In this document: piece after piece, positions 23,993 to 36,978 of the stretch
How the letters are laid out: every line of letters starts with the position of its first letter
Position numbering within the stretch: the stretch's first letter is position 1
Translations under genes and position numbers: made by a program
Source: Halocatena pleomorpha
Lineage (GTDB): Archaea; Halobacteriota; Halobacteria; Halobacteriales; Haloarculaceae
Direction of reading: 5' to 3'
Length of the DNA: 41,657 nucleotides
Assembly (NCBI RefSeq): GCF_003862495.1
Contig: NZ_RRCH01000037.1
Span: forward strand, 1 to 41,657
The notes under the pieces: generated by a model
The model's database searches: none
What the model was told of the DNA's origin: nothing
The model's input: the letters and a program-made list of their open reading frames with translations, nothing else

Positions 23993-25615
23993 TCAGTCGT
24001 CAGTTGCCATTCCCGAGTCCGAATCTGACCGCCGCTTGTGGGGCACGGTGGTAGTTGACTCGGCGTCGTCATCCTCATCCACATGCTGTTTGGCGATGCG
24101 GTAGCTGCCATAGAGGATCACGAGCAAGAACAGCGAGAACGGGAGCGCCATCGTCACGGACAGCGATTCGATGGCACTGAACTCTTCGAATTGGAGCGAT
24201 ATCATACCGAAGACCGCCAGCAGTGCGCCCCACCACGCGCGGTTTCGTGGGTTGGGGTTTTCGGTGCCGAGCGTGATTGCCGATAGCATGTACACGGCCG
24301 AATCGAGCGAGGTGATGATGTACCCCGCGATGACGAAGCAGAACAACACCGCCAACACCGTTCCGTACGGTGTGATGTTGAGTGCTGTAGCGATCGCGGC
24401 CGGCTCGCCGGCTTCTATTGCTTGCGCGATCGGTTGCTGGTTACCAGGTGCGAGCACCCACCCACCGATGAGCGAGTGCTGGATCCACGTGAACACTGTG
24501 GGGACGATCACGAGCACGGCGAACATCTCTCGGAGTGTTCGGCCTTTCGAGACGCGCGCGACGAAGCTCCCGACGAAGATGCTCCATGCAGCCCACCAAG
24601 CCCACCAGAATCCAGTCAGCCCGGCCGCGCCGTTGCCGCCGCCGTTCGGTGCGGTGTACAGCGTCAGCCGGAACATCTCGCTGAGCCAAACCCCTGTCGC
24701 GTCCAAGCCCAACTCGAACATGTAGAGGGTTGGTCCTACCACGACGAGCATCGCCATCGCAAGCGTGATGCACACGACAGTTGCGCGGGCAGCGTTGCGG
24801 ATCCCTGAACGGAGTCCGAGCCAGACGTCTAGGAGGAAAATGACGCCGATGAGTCCGAAGACCGCGTAGGTCAGGATCGCCGCTTCGAACCCGAAGACGC
24901 GCCCGATGATGGCGGACATCGTCTGTGCGCTGAACCCGAGCGTCGTTGCGATCCCACCAATAATGGCGATGAGCGCCGCTGCGTCAACGATCCAGTAGAG
25001 AAGGGATTTCGATCCCTCCGCGTCAGCGAGCCAATCGGGCAGCCACTTCCAGCCACGAATGCCGGTGAGCATTGAGCTGATCTTGTACTCATCAACACCC
25101 CACGTGTAGATGGTGATCCCGAACGCCATCGCAACGGGAAGATACCACATCGCTAGCCCGGGAAACACCTCGTGGATGAACATGAACGCCAGCGCCATTG
25201 CTTCGGTAGACGCGCCTGAAACCGGTGCGGGTGAGGGTGGCGATTTGACGATCTGGATCGGCTCAGCAACACCCCAGATGAGAATCGACGCACCGAAACC
25301 CACCGTAAATACCATCGAAACCCACGAAAACAGCCCGAATTCCGGCTCAGTGTCCGGTCCACCGATCCGGATCTGGCCGTATTTCGAGACCATAAACAGC
25401 ACTGTGCCGATCAGTAGCACGAATCCGAGCAGAATGAACCACCACTCGAAATACGTGAGTATCCAGCTCTGGGTAGCGGTGAGTGCGCTGCTCAGAAACG
25501 CCGGAGCCACAAGCCCAACCCCACCCAACGCGAGCATTATGGTCATCGTGACACCGAACAGTACGCGTTCAGATCTTGAGGTCCCTTCTAGACCCAAAAT
25601 GTACCACGAGCCCAT
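23993..25615 (-). CDS. BCCT-family betaine/choline/carnitine transporter
   Basis: This secondary transporter probably imports a quaternary amine such as glycine betaine as a compatible solute. The 540-residue protein has about 12 hydrophobic helices. The Trp-rich family signature is present (GFWWAWWAAWSIFVGSFVARVSKGRTLREM). It also has the gate-like SPPSPAPVSGAS loop and the GAAEP-like WGVAEPIQ motif. The short acidic C-terminal tail (about 35 residues) may sense osmotic state, as in BetP, but the charge pattern differs. The ATG at 25615 precedes the first helix. The genes on either side are not related to transport. Confidence 0.9.
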   Translation of the reverse strand: MGSWYILGLEGTSRSERVLFGVTMTIMLALGGVGLVAPAFLSSALTATQSWILTYFEWWFILLGFVLLIGTVLFMVSKYGQIRIGGPDTEPEFGLFSWVSMVFTVGFGASILIWGVAEPIQIVKSPPSPAPVSGASTEAMALAFMFIHEVFPGLAMWYLPVAMAFGITIYTWGVDEYKISSMLTGIRGWKWLPDWLADAEGSKSLLYWIVDAAALIAIIGGIATTLGFSAQTMSAIIGRVFGFEAAILTYAVFGLIGVIFLLDVWLGLRSGIRNAARATVVCITLAMAMLVVVGPTLYMFELGLDATGVWLSEMFRLTLYTAPNGGGNGAAGLTGFWWAWWAAWSIFVGSFVARVSKGRTLREMFAVLVIVPTVFTWIQHSLIGGWVLAPGNQQPIAQAIEAGEPAAIATALNITPYGTVLAVLFCFVIAGYIITSLDSAVYMLSAITLGTENPNPRNRAWWGALLAVFGMISLQFEEFSAIESLSVTMALPFSLFLLVILYGSYRIAKQHVDEDDDAESTTTVPHKRRSDSDSGMATDD

Positions 25616-26162
25616 TATCGGTTATTCGTCGAAACCGCTCGCTCGCTGCTTCTTGAACGATCACGAACACTGCTGTCGCTACTGCTATCGGTGTTTCGGT
25701 TCATACACCAACGTACACCCAACCCAATCGATTGTCACTGAAAAGTTCGTTGCTCCCGTGATCCGAAGCAAGAGCTTTTCTCTCGACGGATGTCAACGTG
25801 TCACCAGATCGGTTCGATACGTGTGCGCTTACAGGCAAAGCGTCTCCTTCTTCACCGGATCGGAGCTGTGTCCTCCTCACCGATCAGATCAATGTTTGTC
25901 CCTTCGATGCGTTTTATACCCTCCTCGATGATGTACTCGATACTGGGGTATCGAACGATACGTCATTGAAACATACTAGTAGCTATGAAGTGTGTTGGTT
26001 CAGTGGATGGGGCACTACGGTGTGAAAACAGCGATACGGGCGTATGCATGCCTGTAAATAAGAAAAAGTGCCTCAGACAAATGTTGATTTGCTTGGTATA
26101 ACACAATACTATGATATGGCGTATACGTTATTAAATTGATTATACTCCAGTAAAGACCAATC
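25616..26162. other. 547-base gap, one decayed ORF and a promoter
   Basis: This stretch separates the BCCT gene from the small secreted-protein gene, with which it is divergent. It contains a decayed minus-strand ORF (25852-25974) and an AT-rich promoter (about 26125-26145) for the secreted protein. The remainder shows no coding bias that I can support. Confidence 0.4.
25852..25974 (-). pseudogene. decayed 40-codon ORF with stop at codon 4
   Basis: On the minus strand, ATG 25974 is followed by TTT CAA TGA, and the same frame then reads RIVRYPSIEYIIEEG, IKRIEGTNIDLIGEEDTAPIR and a stop. The peptide has the acidic, helical look of a haloarchaeal C-terminus. An in-frame TGA at 25963-25965 would block translation. 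It is probably a gene remnant. A chance frame or a sequencing error is possible. Confidence 0.25.
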
Positions 26163-26393
26163 ATGACATCGAAACTTAAAGCAGCATTGACCGCTGTCCT
26201 GTTGTTGAGTCTCGTCGCCGGTGGAATGGGTACCGCTGTGGCTGAAACGACCGATATCGACAGTGGGGAGACCACGATCGTCAACGACGACGATGCCGTC
26301 GACGCCGACGAGCTCCTCGACGACGTCAACCTGAACGTTCTGGGCGGTCTGACTGACGGTGACAGCGCAGTTCTCCTCCCCGCCCTCGCTTAA
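26163..26393 (+). CDS. small secreted acidic protein
   Basis: The 76-residue protein has a clear Sec-type signal peptide: basic start (MTSKLK), hydrophobic core (AALTAVLLLSLVAGG) and AVA before Glu28. The mature 49 residues are very acidic (DIDSGETTIVNDDDAVDADELLDD) and end with a weakly hydrophobic tail (VNLNVLGGLTDGDSAVLLPALA). No domain is recognised. A strong AT-rich promoter precedes ATG 26163. It could be an exported peptide, bacteriocin-like, or a surface component; none of these is shown. Confidence 0.6.
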   Translation: MTSKLKAALTAVLLLSLVAGGMGTAVAETTDIDSGETTIVNDDDAVDADELLDDVNLNVLGGLTDGDSAVLLPALA

Positions 26394-26417
26394 TAGCGGC
26401 GCGAGCGTACCCATTTT

Positions 26418-27650
26418 TTATACGACGATCCGGTCGTTTAGCGCCGGTGCCCTCGCGGTATAGCCATCGGACTGGAGTTCGGTTGCAAACGAGACGCAGT
26501 CATCGCCGTGATTGACCAAGATCGCCGCGTCTCGATACGATTCGAGGAATTCGAACAGGCCGTTTCGATCCGCGTGGGCTGAGAAATCGAATGATTCGAC
26601 GCGGGCGCTCACGGGCAGTACGCGCCCATCGATTTCCGCTCGTCCGGTTTCGAGTAGCTCTCGGCCCGGCGTTCCTTCGACTTGGTAACCGGTGAGCGCA
26701 ACCGCGTTCGTGGGGTTCGATCGAATCGCGGGGAGGTACGTCATCACCGGGCCGCCGGTCACCATGCCAGCGGTCGTAAGTATTGTCGTGTTCGTGTCTG
26801 CGACGCGTCTGCGTCGTTCATCACCACCTGAGACGGTTCTGACGGCGGATTTTGCGCGTCGAAACGCGTCTGGATCACGGAGATAGCTCGGATACTGGCT
26901 GAGCAGTTCCGTCACGCGCGTGCCCATACCATCCACGTGGCAGTCGATGTCGTTAGCCGTACAGATCATGCTCAACTCCTGTGTCCGGCCAATCGCGAAC
27001 ACCGGAACGACAACCGTGCCACCGTTCCAGACGGTCGTTCGGACGGTTTCGACGAACTGGCGCTCCAGTTCGGAACGGTCGGTGTGTGCTACGTCGGCGT
27101 ACGTGCTCTCACAGATCACCACGTCCGCCTCCGGCCGGGCGGTCGTGCCAGCAATAAGTCGTTGGTCGTCGGTGTGAAAATCGCCGGTGTACAGCAGGCG
27201 CGTCTCCCCGTCGTCGACCAGCACGTGGGCGCTGCCGGGGATGTGGCCCGCGTCGTACAGCGTGATCTCGTGGCCGGCTGCCTCGAACGGCTCCCCATAC
27301 GCATGGGCGGTTGAGACCTCTCGCATCCGCCGGACCTCCTCTGCGGTGAATGGGCAGTCGTACGTCCCGCCGTGGAGTTTCAGCGTGTCTCGGGCGAGCA
27401 GGTGGGTCAGCTCGCGGGTGGGGGGCGTCCAGTGGATCGCAGGGCGGTCGGTGCCCGACAGCAGCGACGGCAGCGCCCCCACGTGGTCAAGGTGGCCGTG
27501 GGAGAGCACCACCGCCTCGGGTGTGACCGACCCGACTGGAAAGCGTGGCGGCGTGTCGTTCATCATTCCATAATCGAGCAACAGCGTGTCGTTGACGAGC
27601 ACTGCGCTCCGTCCCACCTCACGAGCACCGCCCAGAAACCGGAGTTCCAT
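26418..27650 (-). CDS. beta-CASP family metallo-beta-lactamase ribonuclease
   Basis: This is a zinc-dependent hydrolase that acts on RNA, as in archaeal CPSF-like/RNase J-like enzymes. The 410-residue protein has the MBL motif HGHLDH (51-56) and TGDFHTDDQ. The beta-CASP part carries the CESTYAD motif and GGTVVVPVFAIGRTQEL, and the C-terminus has FDFSAHAD and ILVNHGDD. It lacks KH domains at its N-terminus, so it is not aCPSF1 but the shorter form. ATG 27650 gives the usual MELRFLGGAREVGRS start; the longer frame is not family-like. Confidence 0.88.
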   Translation of the reverse strand: MELRFLGGAREVGRSAVLVNDTLLLDYGMMNDTPPRFPVGSVTPEAVVLSHGHLDHVGALPSLLSGTDRPAIHWTPPTRELTHLLARDTLKLHGGTYDCPFTAEEVRRMREVSTAHAYGEPFEAAGHEITLYDAGHIPGSAHVLVDDGETRLLYTGDFHTDDQRLIAGTTARPEADVVICESTYADVAHTDRSELERQFVETVRTTVWNGGTVVVPVFAIGRTQELSMICTANDIDCHVDGMGTRVTELLSQYPSYLRDPDAFRRAKSAVRTVSGGDERRRRVADTNTTILTTAGMVTGGPVMTYLPAIRSNPTNAVALTGYQVEGTPGRELLETGRAEIDGRVLPVSARVESFDFSAHADRNGLFEFLESYRDAAILVNHGDDCVSFATELQSDGYTARAPALNDRIVV

Positions 27651-27761
27651 CGTGCGGTGTATCGCGCTACAGCCGTTTGCCTCCACCGGCTCACGGTGCT
27701 CAATCGGTGACGCCGACGTAGTACCGCAGCCTATATCATGATCGCTCGAAACAGGTCGGAT

Positions 27762-27881
27762 ATGACTCTCTCATTGGATGAACTTGAATCTCATCTGTTC
27801 AAGTGTGCCGACATCATCCGGGACGCTGTCGATCCGACGGACTACAAGGAGTACATTCTGCCGCTGGTTTACTACAAGTAG
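27762..27881 (+). pseudogene. hsdM: HsdM N-terminal remnant (type I restriction-modification)
   Basis: This frame encodes 39 residues beginning MTLSLDELESHLFKCADIIR and ending with YILPLVYYK then TAG. That is the normal start of the HsdM N-terminal helical domain, whose family continues with a K-x-I/L-S-D segment. Only about 8 percent of a normal HsdM (about 500 residues) is left. The TAG arises at the junction with the metallopeptidase remnant, where the frame changes. The rest of the methylase, and HsdS and HsdR, are not in the window. The start is intact, so a short peptide could still be made. Confidence 0.7.
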
Positions 27882-28039
27882 ATTATCTTGTCGTTCACGA
27901 ACTCGCGCATCTAACTGAGCAGCATCACGGACGGGCGTTTTGGCAGCTCGTTGGGGAGTACGTTCCGGACTACAAAGCCACGGCCCACTGGCTCGAAGTG
28001 AACAGTGTACAGTTGATTTTTAGCGATGATGATCTATGA
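27878..28039 (+). pseudogene. C-terminal remnant of YgjP-like (DUF45) metallopeptidase
   Basis: This frame reads VDYLVVHELAHLTEQHHGRAFW and then a WLEVN segment, ending IFSDDDL. The HELAH with a downstream HHGRAFW is the zinc site of the YgjP-like/WLM metal-dependent hydrolases that often sit beside type I restriction-modification genes. The N-terminal two thirds are missing. It begins inside the last codons of the HsdM remnant, in a different frame. The frame is open upstream to 27803 only because it passes through HsdM sequence in the wrong phase. It has no plausible start of its own. Confidence 0.7.
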
Positions 28040-28181
28040 AAATCATTGTCAAACTACAGATAACGATCATCAAGGTAAGCGATTGAACGCAGACCTTGCA
28101 GGGTATATCGATTAGCGACTAGCTCAAGGGACTTCAGAGTAGTGTTTAACCTTGACTACCTCCTATAGAGATGAAACAACA

Positions 28182-28424
28182 ATGGATGACAACAAAGAGA
28201 CTGCTGACAAATCGACGGTAACAGTAAAACCGACAGGTTCCGCTGGAGCGTGGGATGCCTATCTCCGTAGAGATGAAACAGAAGCAATGGATGATATTGA
28301 GGCCGAACAACGTGATGATGGGCAGTGGCGTGGTCTTCTCGATGGCGAAGTTGTCACAGTTCAATCATCACGAGGAAAAGCCCTCGATATGACCCGAGTA
28401 ACGAAAGAAGAAGGGAGTGAATAG
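28182..28424 (+). CDS. small orphan protein in the eroded island
   Basis: The 80-residue protein (ATG 28182) is polar and acidic: MDDNKETADKSTVTVKPTGS, then AWDAYLRRDETEAMDDIEAEQ, and it ends VVTVQSSRGKALDMTRVTKEE. Its size and composition would fit an antitoxin or an accessory factor, but there is no recognised motif. A TATA-like GTTTAACC at about 28144-28151 lies 31-38 bases upstream. Codon use is less G/C-rich at third positions than neighbouring core genes, in keeping with a transferred origin. An internal partial repeat is noted separately. It has no partner gene beside it. Confidence 0.5.
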   Translation: MDDNKETADKSTVTVKPTGSAGAWDAYLRRDETEAMDDIEAEQRDDGQWRGLLDGEVVTVQSSRGKALDMTRVTKEEGSE

Positions 28425-28430
28425 CATCGG

Positions 28431-28592
28431 TTGGCTGTTGAATCGCCCAGCGTACAGACAGGTCGCTAAAGTTGCGGATTTTCCCGCCTGTTATCGTATA
28501 ATAGTCACGATATCGCCAGTATCGCAACAATATTCTGTCAGATTGGTCTGCTCCTGATGACTCCAGTGGCTTAAAGAGCATTCAACAAGGAA
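28431..28592. mobile_element. candidate MITE-like element
   Basis: The segment is bounded by inverted TGTTGAAT (28436-28443) and ATTCAACA (28580-28587), with partial extension (TTGGC... and ...AAGGAA). It is about 160 bases long, non-coding and AT-richer than neighbours. This resembles a non-autonomous element derived from a haloarchaeal insertion sequence. I see no clear target duplication and cannot match a parent element. Confidence 0.3.
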
Positions 28593-28665
28593 CTTTATTC
28601 ATCTCTCATTGCAGGAATTCGGAGGGGTTGGGTCCCATGCTACATCTACTGCGAATAAAACATAG

Positions 28666-28689
28666 TGCCGCCTCCCGGATTTGAACCGG
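28666..28689. repeat. partial copy of tRNA-Phe 3' end, candidate att site
   Basis: These 24 bases are identical to 28803-28826, which is the 3' end (discriminator, acceptor arm and T arm) of the tRNA-Phe gene, in the same orientation. Such repeats are left by integrases that use a tRNA 3' end as attachment site. The two copies are 137 bases apart and flank non-coding DNA with hairpins. Confidence 0.65.
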
Positions 28690-28690
28690 A

Positions 28691-28739
28691 GGAAGACGGT
28701 CTGGCTCGCTCACTCCGTTCGCTCGTCAGACCGTCTTCC
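28691..28739. repeat. 13-base perfect inverted repeat
   Basis: GGAAGACGGTCTG (28691-28703) pairs perfectly with CAGACCGTCTTCC (28727-28739) around a 23-base loop that contains the haloarchaeal repeat word CACTCCGTTC. It lies directly after the partial tRNA copy. A second, shorter hairpin with the same repeat word follows near 28772-28794. Confidence 0.55.
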
Positions 28740-28802
28740 AGGGTTCAGAATCCGCTCGGCGTCGTTTCTTCAGCTGTTCACTCCGTTCACAGCTTCAGAA
28801 TA

Positions 28803-28876
28803 TGCCGCCTCCCGGATTTGAACCGGGGACAGCTCGATCTTCAGTCGAGTGCTCTCCCAGTCTGAGCTAAGGCGGC
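28803..28876 (-). tRNA. trnF: tRNA-Phe (GAA)
   Basis: The minus strand folds as a 74-base cloverleaf: acceptor GCCGCCT paired with AGGCGGC, D arm with AGCTCAGA, anticodon stem CTCGA/TCGAG with loop CTGAAGA (anticodon GAA, at 28842-28840), and a T arm with GGTTCAAATCC. The discriminator is A; CCA is not encoded. No intron is seen. Its 3' end is repeated at 28666-28689, marking an integration site. It follows tRNA-Val by 91 bases. Confidence 0.95.
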
Positions 28877-28967
28877 TCATGCTGAGCAACGACGAGGAGT
28901 TGAAAAAGCGTTTCGAAACGCTCGGCCGAATCACGGGCGTGGACGGCGCTTCCTCCCTCGATGCTCA

Positions 28968-29041
28968 TGGGTCCGGGCGGAGTCGAACCACCGATCTCGT
29001 CCTTGTAAGGGACGCGTCATAAACCACTAGACCACGGACCC
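28968..29041 (-). tRNA. trnV: tRNA-Val (TAC)
   Basis: The minus strand folds as a 74-base cloverleaf: acceptor GGGTCCG paired with CGGACCC, D arm with GGTCTAGTGG, anticodon stem GTCCC... with loop CTTACAA (anticodon TAC at 29007-29005), and T arm with GGTTCGACTCC. Discriminator A, no encoded CCA, no intron. It lies upstream of tRNA-Phe and divergent from the DUF192 gene. Confidence 0.95.
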
Positions 29042-29156
29042 ACACCCGAACACACACCCCCGATCCGAATAACACTTTCCGTTCGTCGGTCGCTCGTTGT
29101 CCGCTACTGGCTCCCTGTCGGGACTGTTTAGTTCTCTCCCTTCTAACCGCAGACGA

Positions 29157-36413: not shown

Positions 36414-36854
36414 ATGCTGTCCGGTTATTATGAGGACATCGAGATCGGTACAACCCAGGAGTTCGGCAGCTACACCGTCGAGAAAGAGGAACTCGTCTCG
36501 TTTGCCGAGCAGTACGATCCCCAACCCTTCCATGTTGACGAATCGGCCGCCGAGGAATCGCTCTTTGGTGAACTCGTCGCCAGCGGGTGGCACACTGCAG
36601 CGATGACGATGCGGATGCTCGTCGACAACAGTTCAGCCGATTCGCGCGCGATGGGCGCTGTCGGCGTCGATGAACTGCGATGGAAAGAACCTGTTCGCCC
36701 AGGAGACACGCTTTCGGTACGGACCGAAGTCATAGACAAAGAGCCGTGGGATGATGCTCTCGGACTCATCTCCTCGCGTACGACTGTCTTCGCGGGAGAT
36801 ACCGAGGTCATGGCGATGACCGGACGCGTGCTCTATCAGAGGCGGGCGGAGTAG
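36414..36854 (+). CDS. MaoC-like dehydratase (hot-dog fold)
   Basis: The 146-residue protein has the hydratase 2 motif in EQYDPQPFHVDESAAEESLFG, with Asp and His catalytic candidates, followed by ASGWHTAAMTMRML. Later motifs are GVDELRWKEPVRPGDTLSVRTEV. It probably hydrates an enoyl-CoA such as crotonyl- or mesaconyl-CoA. The start ATG 36414 gives MLSGYYEDIEIG, the family N-terminus. The upstream gene is divergent. Confidence 0.88.
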   Translation: MLSGYYEDIEIGTTQEFGSYTVEKEELVSFAEQYDPQPFHVDESAAEESLFGELVASGWHTAAMTMRMLVDNSSADSRAMGAVGVDELRWKEPVRPGDTLSVRTEVIDKEPWDDALGLISSRTTVFAGDTEVMAMTGRVLYQRRAE

Positions 36855-36870
36855 CGCTAGCACCGTAGCG

Positions 36871-36877
36871 TTAAAGA
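36871..36877 (+). promoter_or_regulatory. TATA-like element before the CAU tRNA
   Basis: TTAAAGA lies 27-33 bases upstream of the tRNA 5' end, right for a TATA box. Confidence 0.35.
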
Positions 36878-36903
36878 CATCAGCCCGAAAAGAACTATCC
36901 AGC

Positions 36904-36978
36904 GGGCCCTTAGCTTAGTCTGGTCAAAGCGATCCGCTCATAACGGATTGATCGCTGGTTCGAATCCGGCAGGGCCCA
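36904..36978 (+). tRNA. tRNA with CAT anticodon (Ile2 or elongator Met)
   Basis: The 75-base cloverleaf has acceptor GGGCCCT paired with AGGGCCC, D arm TTAGCTTAGTC, anticodon stem TCCG/CGGA with loop CTCATAA (anticodon CAT at 36939-36941), and T arm with GGTTCGAATCC. The discriminator is A and CCA is not encoded. The acceptor stem is not that of an initiator tRNA. It resembles tRNA-Ile2, where C34 is agmatidine-modified, but elongator tRNA-Met cannot be excluded. No intron is seen. Confidence 0.9.

Follow-up and report, generated by a model that had tools for sequence, protein, structure and literature searches.

Type I restriction–modification systems are distributed patchily among close relatives within the Halobacteria, by transfer and by loss (PMC6471742), and the restriction–modification systems of archaea have been surveyed (PMC10609329); a text search for pseudogenes and for the peptidase treated below gave no result in either paper. 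In bacteria, the RRDM defence island of E. coli E2348/69 (EPEC) holds type I hsd genes together with a gene for an M48-family zinc metallopeptidase (PMC12255303). Our literature search for DUF45/YgjP in connection with type I restriction found this island and otherwise nothing specific. Near Halocatena stand YIM A00010 and YIM A00013, morphologically differentiating haloarchaea of the hyphae-/spore-forming group that were studied with Actinoarchaeum (PMC10067837).

Here we examine a short stretch of the Halocatena pleomorpha genome in which fragments of hsdM and of a ygjP-like metallopeptidase gene adjoin. The window, i.e. the whole stretch of 41,657 nucleotides that was analysed, is contig C31 of a 3.65-Mb draft assembly (61 contigs, 96.6% complete). 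Our results indicate that the stretch is almost certainly a non-functional scar of a type I restriction–modification operon that served in phage defence (hsdM, hsdS, hsdR and ygjP), left by one ∼6.2 kb deletion.

Two gene remnants and their genomic setting

The features of the locus and those of the intact operon in the closest congener (G042) are listed in Table 1.

Table 1. Features of the scar and its surroundings (window coordinates) and of the intact operon in G042 (coordinates of locus L047)
Feature	Position	Strand	Evidence
TATATC box of the former hsdM promoter (retained), 25–30 nt 5' of the ATG	27732..27737	+	
hsdM remnant: first 39 codons, then TAG at 27879–27881	27762..27878	+	PF12161; identity to G042
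Deletion junction with GT(C)GAT microhomology, here GTAGAT	27878..27883	+	alignment to intact arms
ygjP remnant: last 53 codons, stop TGA at 28037–28039	27878..28039	+	PF01863
Left neighbour, syntenic anchor: beta-CASP metallo-beta-lactamase nuclease (RNase J/CPSF-like)	26418..27686	-	PF10996, PF07521, PF00753
Right anchor: tRNA-Phe (gaa)	28803..28876	-	ARAGORN
tRNA-Val (tac), beyond tRNA-Phe	28967–29042		ARAGORN
G042 hsdM	L047:4864–6360		Pfam N6_Mtase 3e-82, HsdM_N 5e-25
G042 hsdS	L047:6353–7660		Pfam Methylase_S 6e-33
G042 hsdR	L047:7653–10622		Pfam HSDR_N 2e-41, with SWI2/SNF2
G042 ygjP	L047:10615–11337		Pfam YgjP 3e-57

That the first 39 codons of hsdM begin at position 27762, as originally predicted, is confirmed by a match to PF12161 (HsdM_N; E=2e-9, 38.6 bits, cut-off 24.5) and by identity to the intact HsdM of G042 at 39/39 residues, with only synonymous differences at the DNA level. 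The PF12161 match spans residues 8–39, i.e. profile positions 1–32 of 135. The second remnant matches PF01863 (YgjP-like) in the frame at 27803–28036 (E=4.7e-15, 56.6 bits, cut-off 26), covers only positions 166–205 of the 207-position profile and shares ∼80% residue identity with its relatives. It retains HELAH and the following HH and has lost the RWGSC region, and hence does not hold the full YgjP-like domain (RWGSC region plus HExxH). Given these E-values and bit scores, neither piece is a chance match. The original prediction had described the C-terminal half of a YgjP-like metallopeptidase, out of frame with hsdM and with HELAH preserved: the change of frame holds and the motif is borne out by the translated frame, but the remnant comprises the 53 C-terminal residues of a 240-residue protein, roughly one fifth and not half.

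The TATATC box lies at an equal distance from the hsdM start in G042, G043, G044 and G039, a placement that would correspond to the layout of a leaderless haloarchaeal transcript. On the left, the region of the beta-CASP nuclease gene is collinear with G042 as far as the junction; on the right, tRNA-Phe likewise follows ygjP in G042, G043, G039 and G044. The interval between the ygjP stop and tRNA-Phe (28040–28800) has no counterpart in G042, where 1.2 kb of other DNA with a 273-aa ORF occupies this place; neither that ORF nor a 90-aa ORF of the window (28152–28424) belongs to a known Pfam family. Between the scar and the tRNA, positions 28666–28689 duplicate the last 24 bases of tRNA-Phe (28803–28826) at a distance of 137 bp. 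The same copy occurs in G043 (L048:5956) and a similar one in G044 (L050:12885), with none in G042 or G039, which suggests that an attachment site was duplicated at this tRNA some time ago. Elsewhere in the window, an ARAGORN tmRNA call at 36653–36978 ends on top of tRNA-Met (36904–36978) and is probably false, the host being an archaeon.

The scar locus lacks an N6 adenine methylase domain, HsdS and HsdR. Domain searches of the remaining genome found (i) no second YgjP domain; (ii) no second HsdM_N domain; (iii) no HsdS (Methylase_S); and (iv) no full-length HsdR, the sole HSDR_N match being weak and lying in a 421-aa frame that has a G042 counterpart distinct from the true hsdR of G042. Matches to N6_Mtase in this genome were rejected as HsdM; they lie in open frames of 1364–1433 codons, a length that fits type IIG or BREX-type methylases. 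The searches of this assembly thus recovered none of the four genes in intact form, in line with the proposed deletion. Since the methylase domain, HsdS and HsdR are missing at the locus and were not found elsewhere in the genome, there is no functional system, and the stretch 27762–28039 is best read as a non-functional relic.

Few changes have accumulated in the remnants, so the event looks recent. On the branch leading to the window, the ygjP remnant has undergone five synonymous and three non-synonymous changes, two of which (K to T and E to V) fall at positions mostly conserved in relatives; these counts, though small, would agree with a young scar on which constraint has been relaxed. 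It is most unlikely that the remnant has instead been kept for a function, with the hsdM promoter driving a small protein, either the HsdM peptide of 39–47 aa or a 78-aa GTG-start frame that includes HELAH. Such retention might be read from the conserved TATA box, from an HsdM peptide without amino-acid change against G042, and from the presence of HELAH with both frames open. However, the first 25 residues of the 78-aa frame are hsdM read out of frame, YgjP residues 1–187 and the RWGSCS region are missing from it, the HsdM piece is a fraction of the N-terminal domain (32/135 profile positions), and the two substitutions at mostly conserved positions of the YgjP remnant also speak against it. 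The unchanged HsdM piece fits a young event equally well.

The intact operon and the deletion that would have removed it

We compared the scar DNA with 146 genomes of the family and found matches in 18. G042 carries an intact hsdM-hsdS-hsdR-ygjP operon at the equivalent chromosomal place, between the beta-CASP nuclease gene and tRNA-Phe, and PADLOC calls its three hsd genes a type I MTase, specificity subunit and REase. The two remnants correspond to the two ends of this operon (94% identity on the left and 88% on the right), which is also intact, in the equivalent place, in G039 and G044. In 13 of the 18 matching genomes, the hsdM and ygjP matches share a contig and a strand and are separated by 5.7–7.5 kb. 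The two pieces thus derive from neighbouring genes, and not from genes that are never adjacent in a relative. ygjP stands directly 3' of hsdR in nearly all related haloarchaeal loci long enough to judge, and the intact order also occurs in Halostella pelagica DL-M4, Natrinema gari JCM 14663, Halopiger djelfimassiliensis IIH2 and Halorientalis pallida F13-25. Among bacteria, hsd genes stand directly 5' of ygjP in two loci (a Methylococcales MAG and Azoarcus sp. TTM-91), and most bacterial ygjP loci show no relative of these hsd genes.

Two further observations concern variation of the operon itself. In G026 (L012 and L053) it is split, with hsdM residues 1–477 on contig C7 and the last 25 codons, hsdS, hsdR and ygjP within contig C1, which reflects either a rearrangement or an assembly break. 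Among the congeners compared (L047, L049 and L050), HsdM is 91% and HsdR 84% identical, and HsdS only about 30%; HsdS would appear to have been swapped or to diverge fast while the other subunits stayed.

Aligning the ends of the scar with the intact locus of G042 shows that one deletion fits. Window positions 23995–27883 align with L047:1097–4985 and 27881–28039 with L047:11179–11337, so that the left arm in G042 ends at L047:4985 and the right arm starts at L047:11179, with no inserted or missing base at the join. Collinearity of the flanks extends over 4–5 kb to the left of the join and 6 kb to its right. Intact order in a relative, collinear flanks and arms that meet at one point, the marks of a single-deletion scar, are all found here. 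The offset between G042 and the window corresponds to a 6,196-bp deletion, and removing this length from within hsdM to within ygjP, the single internal event that had been proposed, converts the G042 layout into that of the window. Because 6,196 is of the form 3n+1 and the two genes share one frame in G042, the frame changes in the window; the hsdM frame accordingly meets a stop just past the join and yields no fusion protein. The comparison supports one deletion as the probable origin of both remnants; several nested deletions would look alike.

To characterize the junction, we aligned it against both arms of G042, G039, G044, G026, G063 and G045. The left arm in these relatives reads AAGTCGATC, the right arm (A/G)TCGATTAT and the window, across the join, AAGTAGATTAT. 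An original estimate of about 27870–27882 overlaps with the join, which the alignment to relatives' arms confines to 27878–27883. The arms share 5–6 bp of microhomology, imperfect in that GTCGAT in the relatives' arms stands against GTAGAT in the window. The C-to-A difference either also creates the TAG or goes back to a synonymous valine codon in the arm that was lost. When breakpoints in the G042 hsdM and ygjP genes are paired at random, microhomology of at least 5 bp occurs in 0.75% of the pairs and of at least 6 bp in 0.27%. This is suggestive, though not proof, that the ends were joined at GTCGAT, a match short enough for coincidence.

A plausible sequence of events can be drawn from these data. 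The ancestor would have carried an operon whose four genes overlap or adjoin (hsdM, hsdS, hsdR and the ygjP-like metallopeptidase gene) between the beta-CASP nuclease gene and tRNA-Phe. A deletion of ∼6.2 kb, from hsdM codon 39/40 to 53 codons before the ygjP end, would then have taken all three subunits, for methylation, specificity and cleavage, in one step, its ends probably joining at the 5–6 bp GTCGAT microhomology. Shedding a restriction–modification system is generally regarded as difficult, since the nuclease persists longer than the methylase. By the known logic of such systems, a cell that lost only the methylase would leave its chromosome open to cleavage, so that joint loss of M, S and R would be advantageous in bypassing this lethal stage.

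A second loss of the operon and a possible third

In the congener G043, hsdM codons 1–18 are fused in frame, at the same place, to the last 89 YgjP residues (L048:5556–5879), giving a fusion ORF of 107 residues that keeps both RWGSCS and HELAH. G043 lacks hsdM codons 19–39, which the window has, and the window lacks YgjP residues that G043 has; neither scar can therefore derive from the other. Flank identity to the window is 90% for G042, 84% for G043, and 77% for G039 and G044, so that G043 is bracketed by intact operons (in G042 on one side and G039/G044 on the other) and two losses are required. G043 lost the operon in a separate event with its own breakpoints. Elsewhere in its genome we found no HsdM_N and no HsdS domain, and HSDR_N only as a weak match in a 191-aa frame.

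G009, which belongs to another genus, contains a decayed hsdM stub of ∼25 recognizable residues (L024:1539–1613, G009:C15:88221–88337). The stub stops (PLVYF) a few codons short of the end point in the window (PLVYYK) and gives way to unrelated DNA; the G009 genome yielded no true YgjP. This is possibly a third loss of the operon. A C-terminal YgjP match in G082 was rejected as a scar of this operon, being diverged in sequence and without DNA match to the locus.

The G043 scar bears on two other explanations of the join in the window. One is homologous recombination through the shared flanks, by which the scar allele would have arisen elsewhere and then come in; haloarchaea recombine freely between related species. 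We consider this very unlikely, as divergence from G042 is even along the flanks (86–88% over several kb on both sides), with no tract of other ancestry seen, and the breakpoints differ from those of the sole other scar in the genus. The other is an assembly artefact, with the operon present in the organism and collapsed or mis-joined in what is, after all, a draft of 61 contigs. A chance mis-join at two points within one operon is implausible, however, and an assembly of this completeness nowhere shows hsdS, a full-length hsdR or another hsdM or ygjP; in addition, the similar scar of G043, with other breakpoints, lies on a 2.86-Mb contig. An artefact is extremely unlikely, and a deletion within this lineage is the preferred reading.

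In separate species the deletions begin shortly after the promoter and first codons of hsdM and have their other end within ygjP, which raises the prospect of a repeated, patterned loss. The in-frame, promoter-captured mini-YgjP of G043, with its whole zinc-site region, may still be made, and the peptidase could have been selectively kept while restriction was discarded. We regard such a pattern as very unlikely.

Comparison with known systems

The finding is ordinary in kind, yet it is an unusually clean scar of restriction-system loss, to which the second independent scar in the genus adds a little interest. That Halobacteria lose restriction systems in a patchy manner is already in the literature, and the scar is a clean example of this known kind. 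Its value lies in (i) two (possibly three) independent scars with exact breakpoints, which would display the physical step, i.e. one deletion removing M, S and R jointly; (ii) the conversion of a published presence/absence pattern in Halobacteria into datable events; and (iii) the observation that hsdR and ygjP are regularly paired in the type I operons of haloarchaea.

The locus resembles the haloarchaeal type I operon with downstream ygjP (G042, G039 and G044) in that its remnants are the two ends of that operon, and differs from the intact form in missing ∼6.2 kb, all of hsdS and hsdR included. The EPEC RRDM island is like the haloarchaeal operon in bringing type I genes and a metallopeptidase gene together, a comparison made from the published M48 description. 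Unlike the scar, that island is bacterial and intact, and carries DarTG and a repressor. The survey of Halobacteria (PMC6471742) infers loss from presence and absence, whereas the window shows a physical scar together with its breakpoints.
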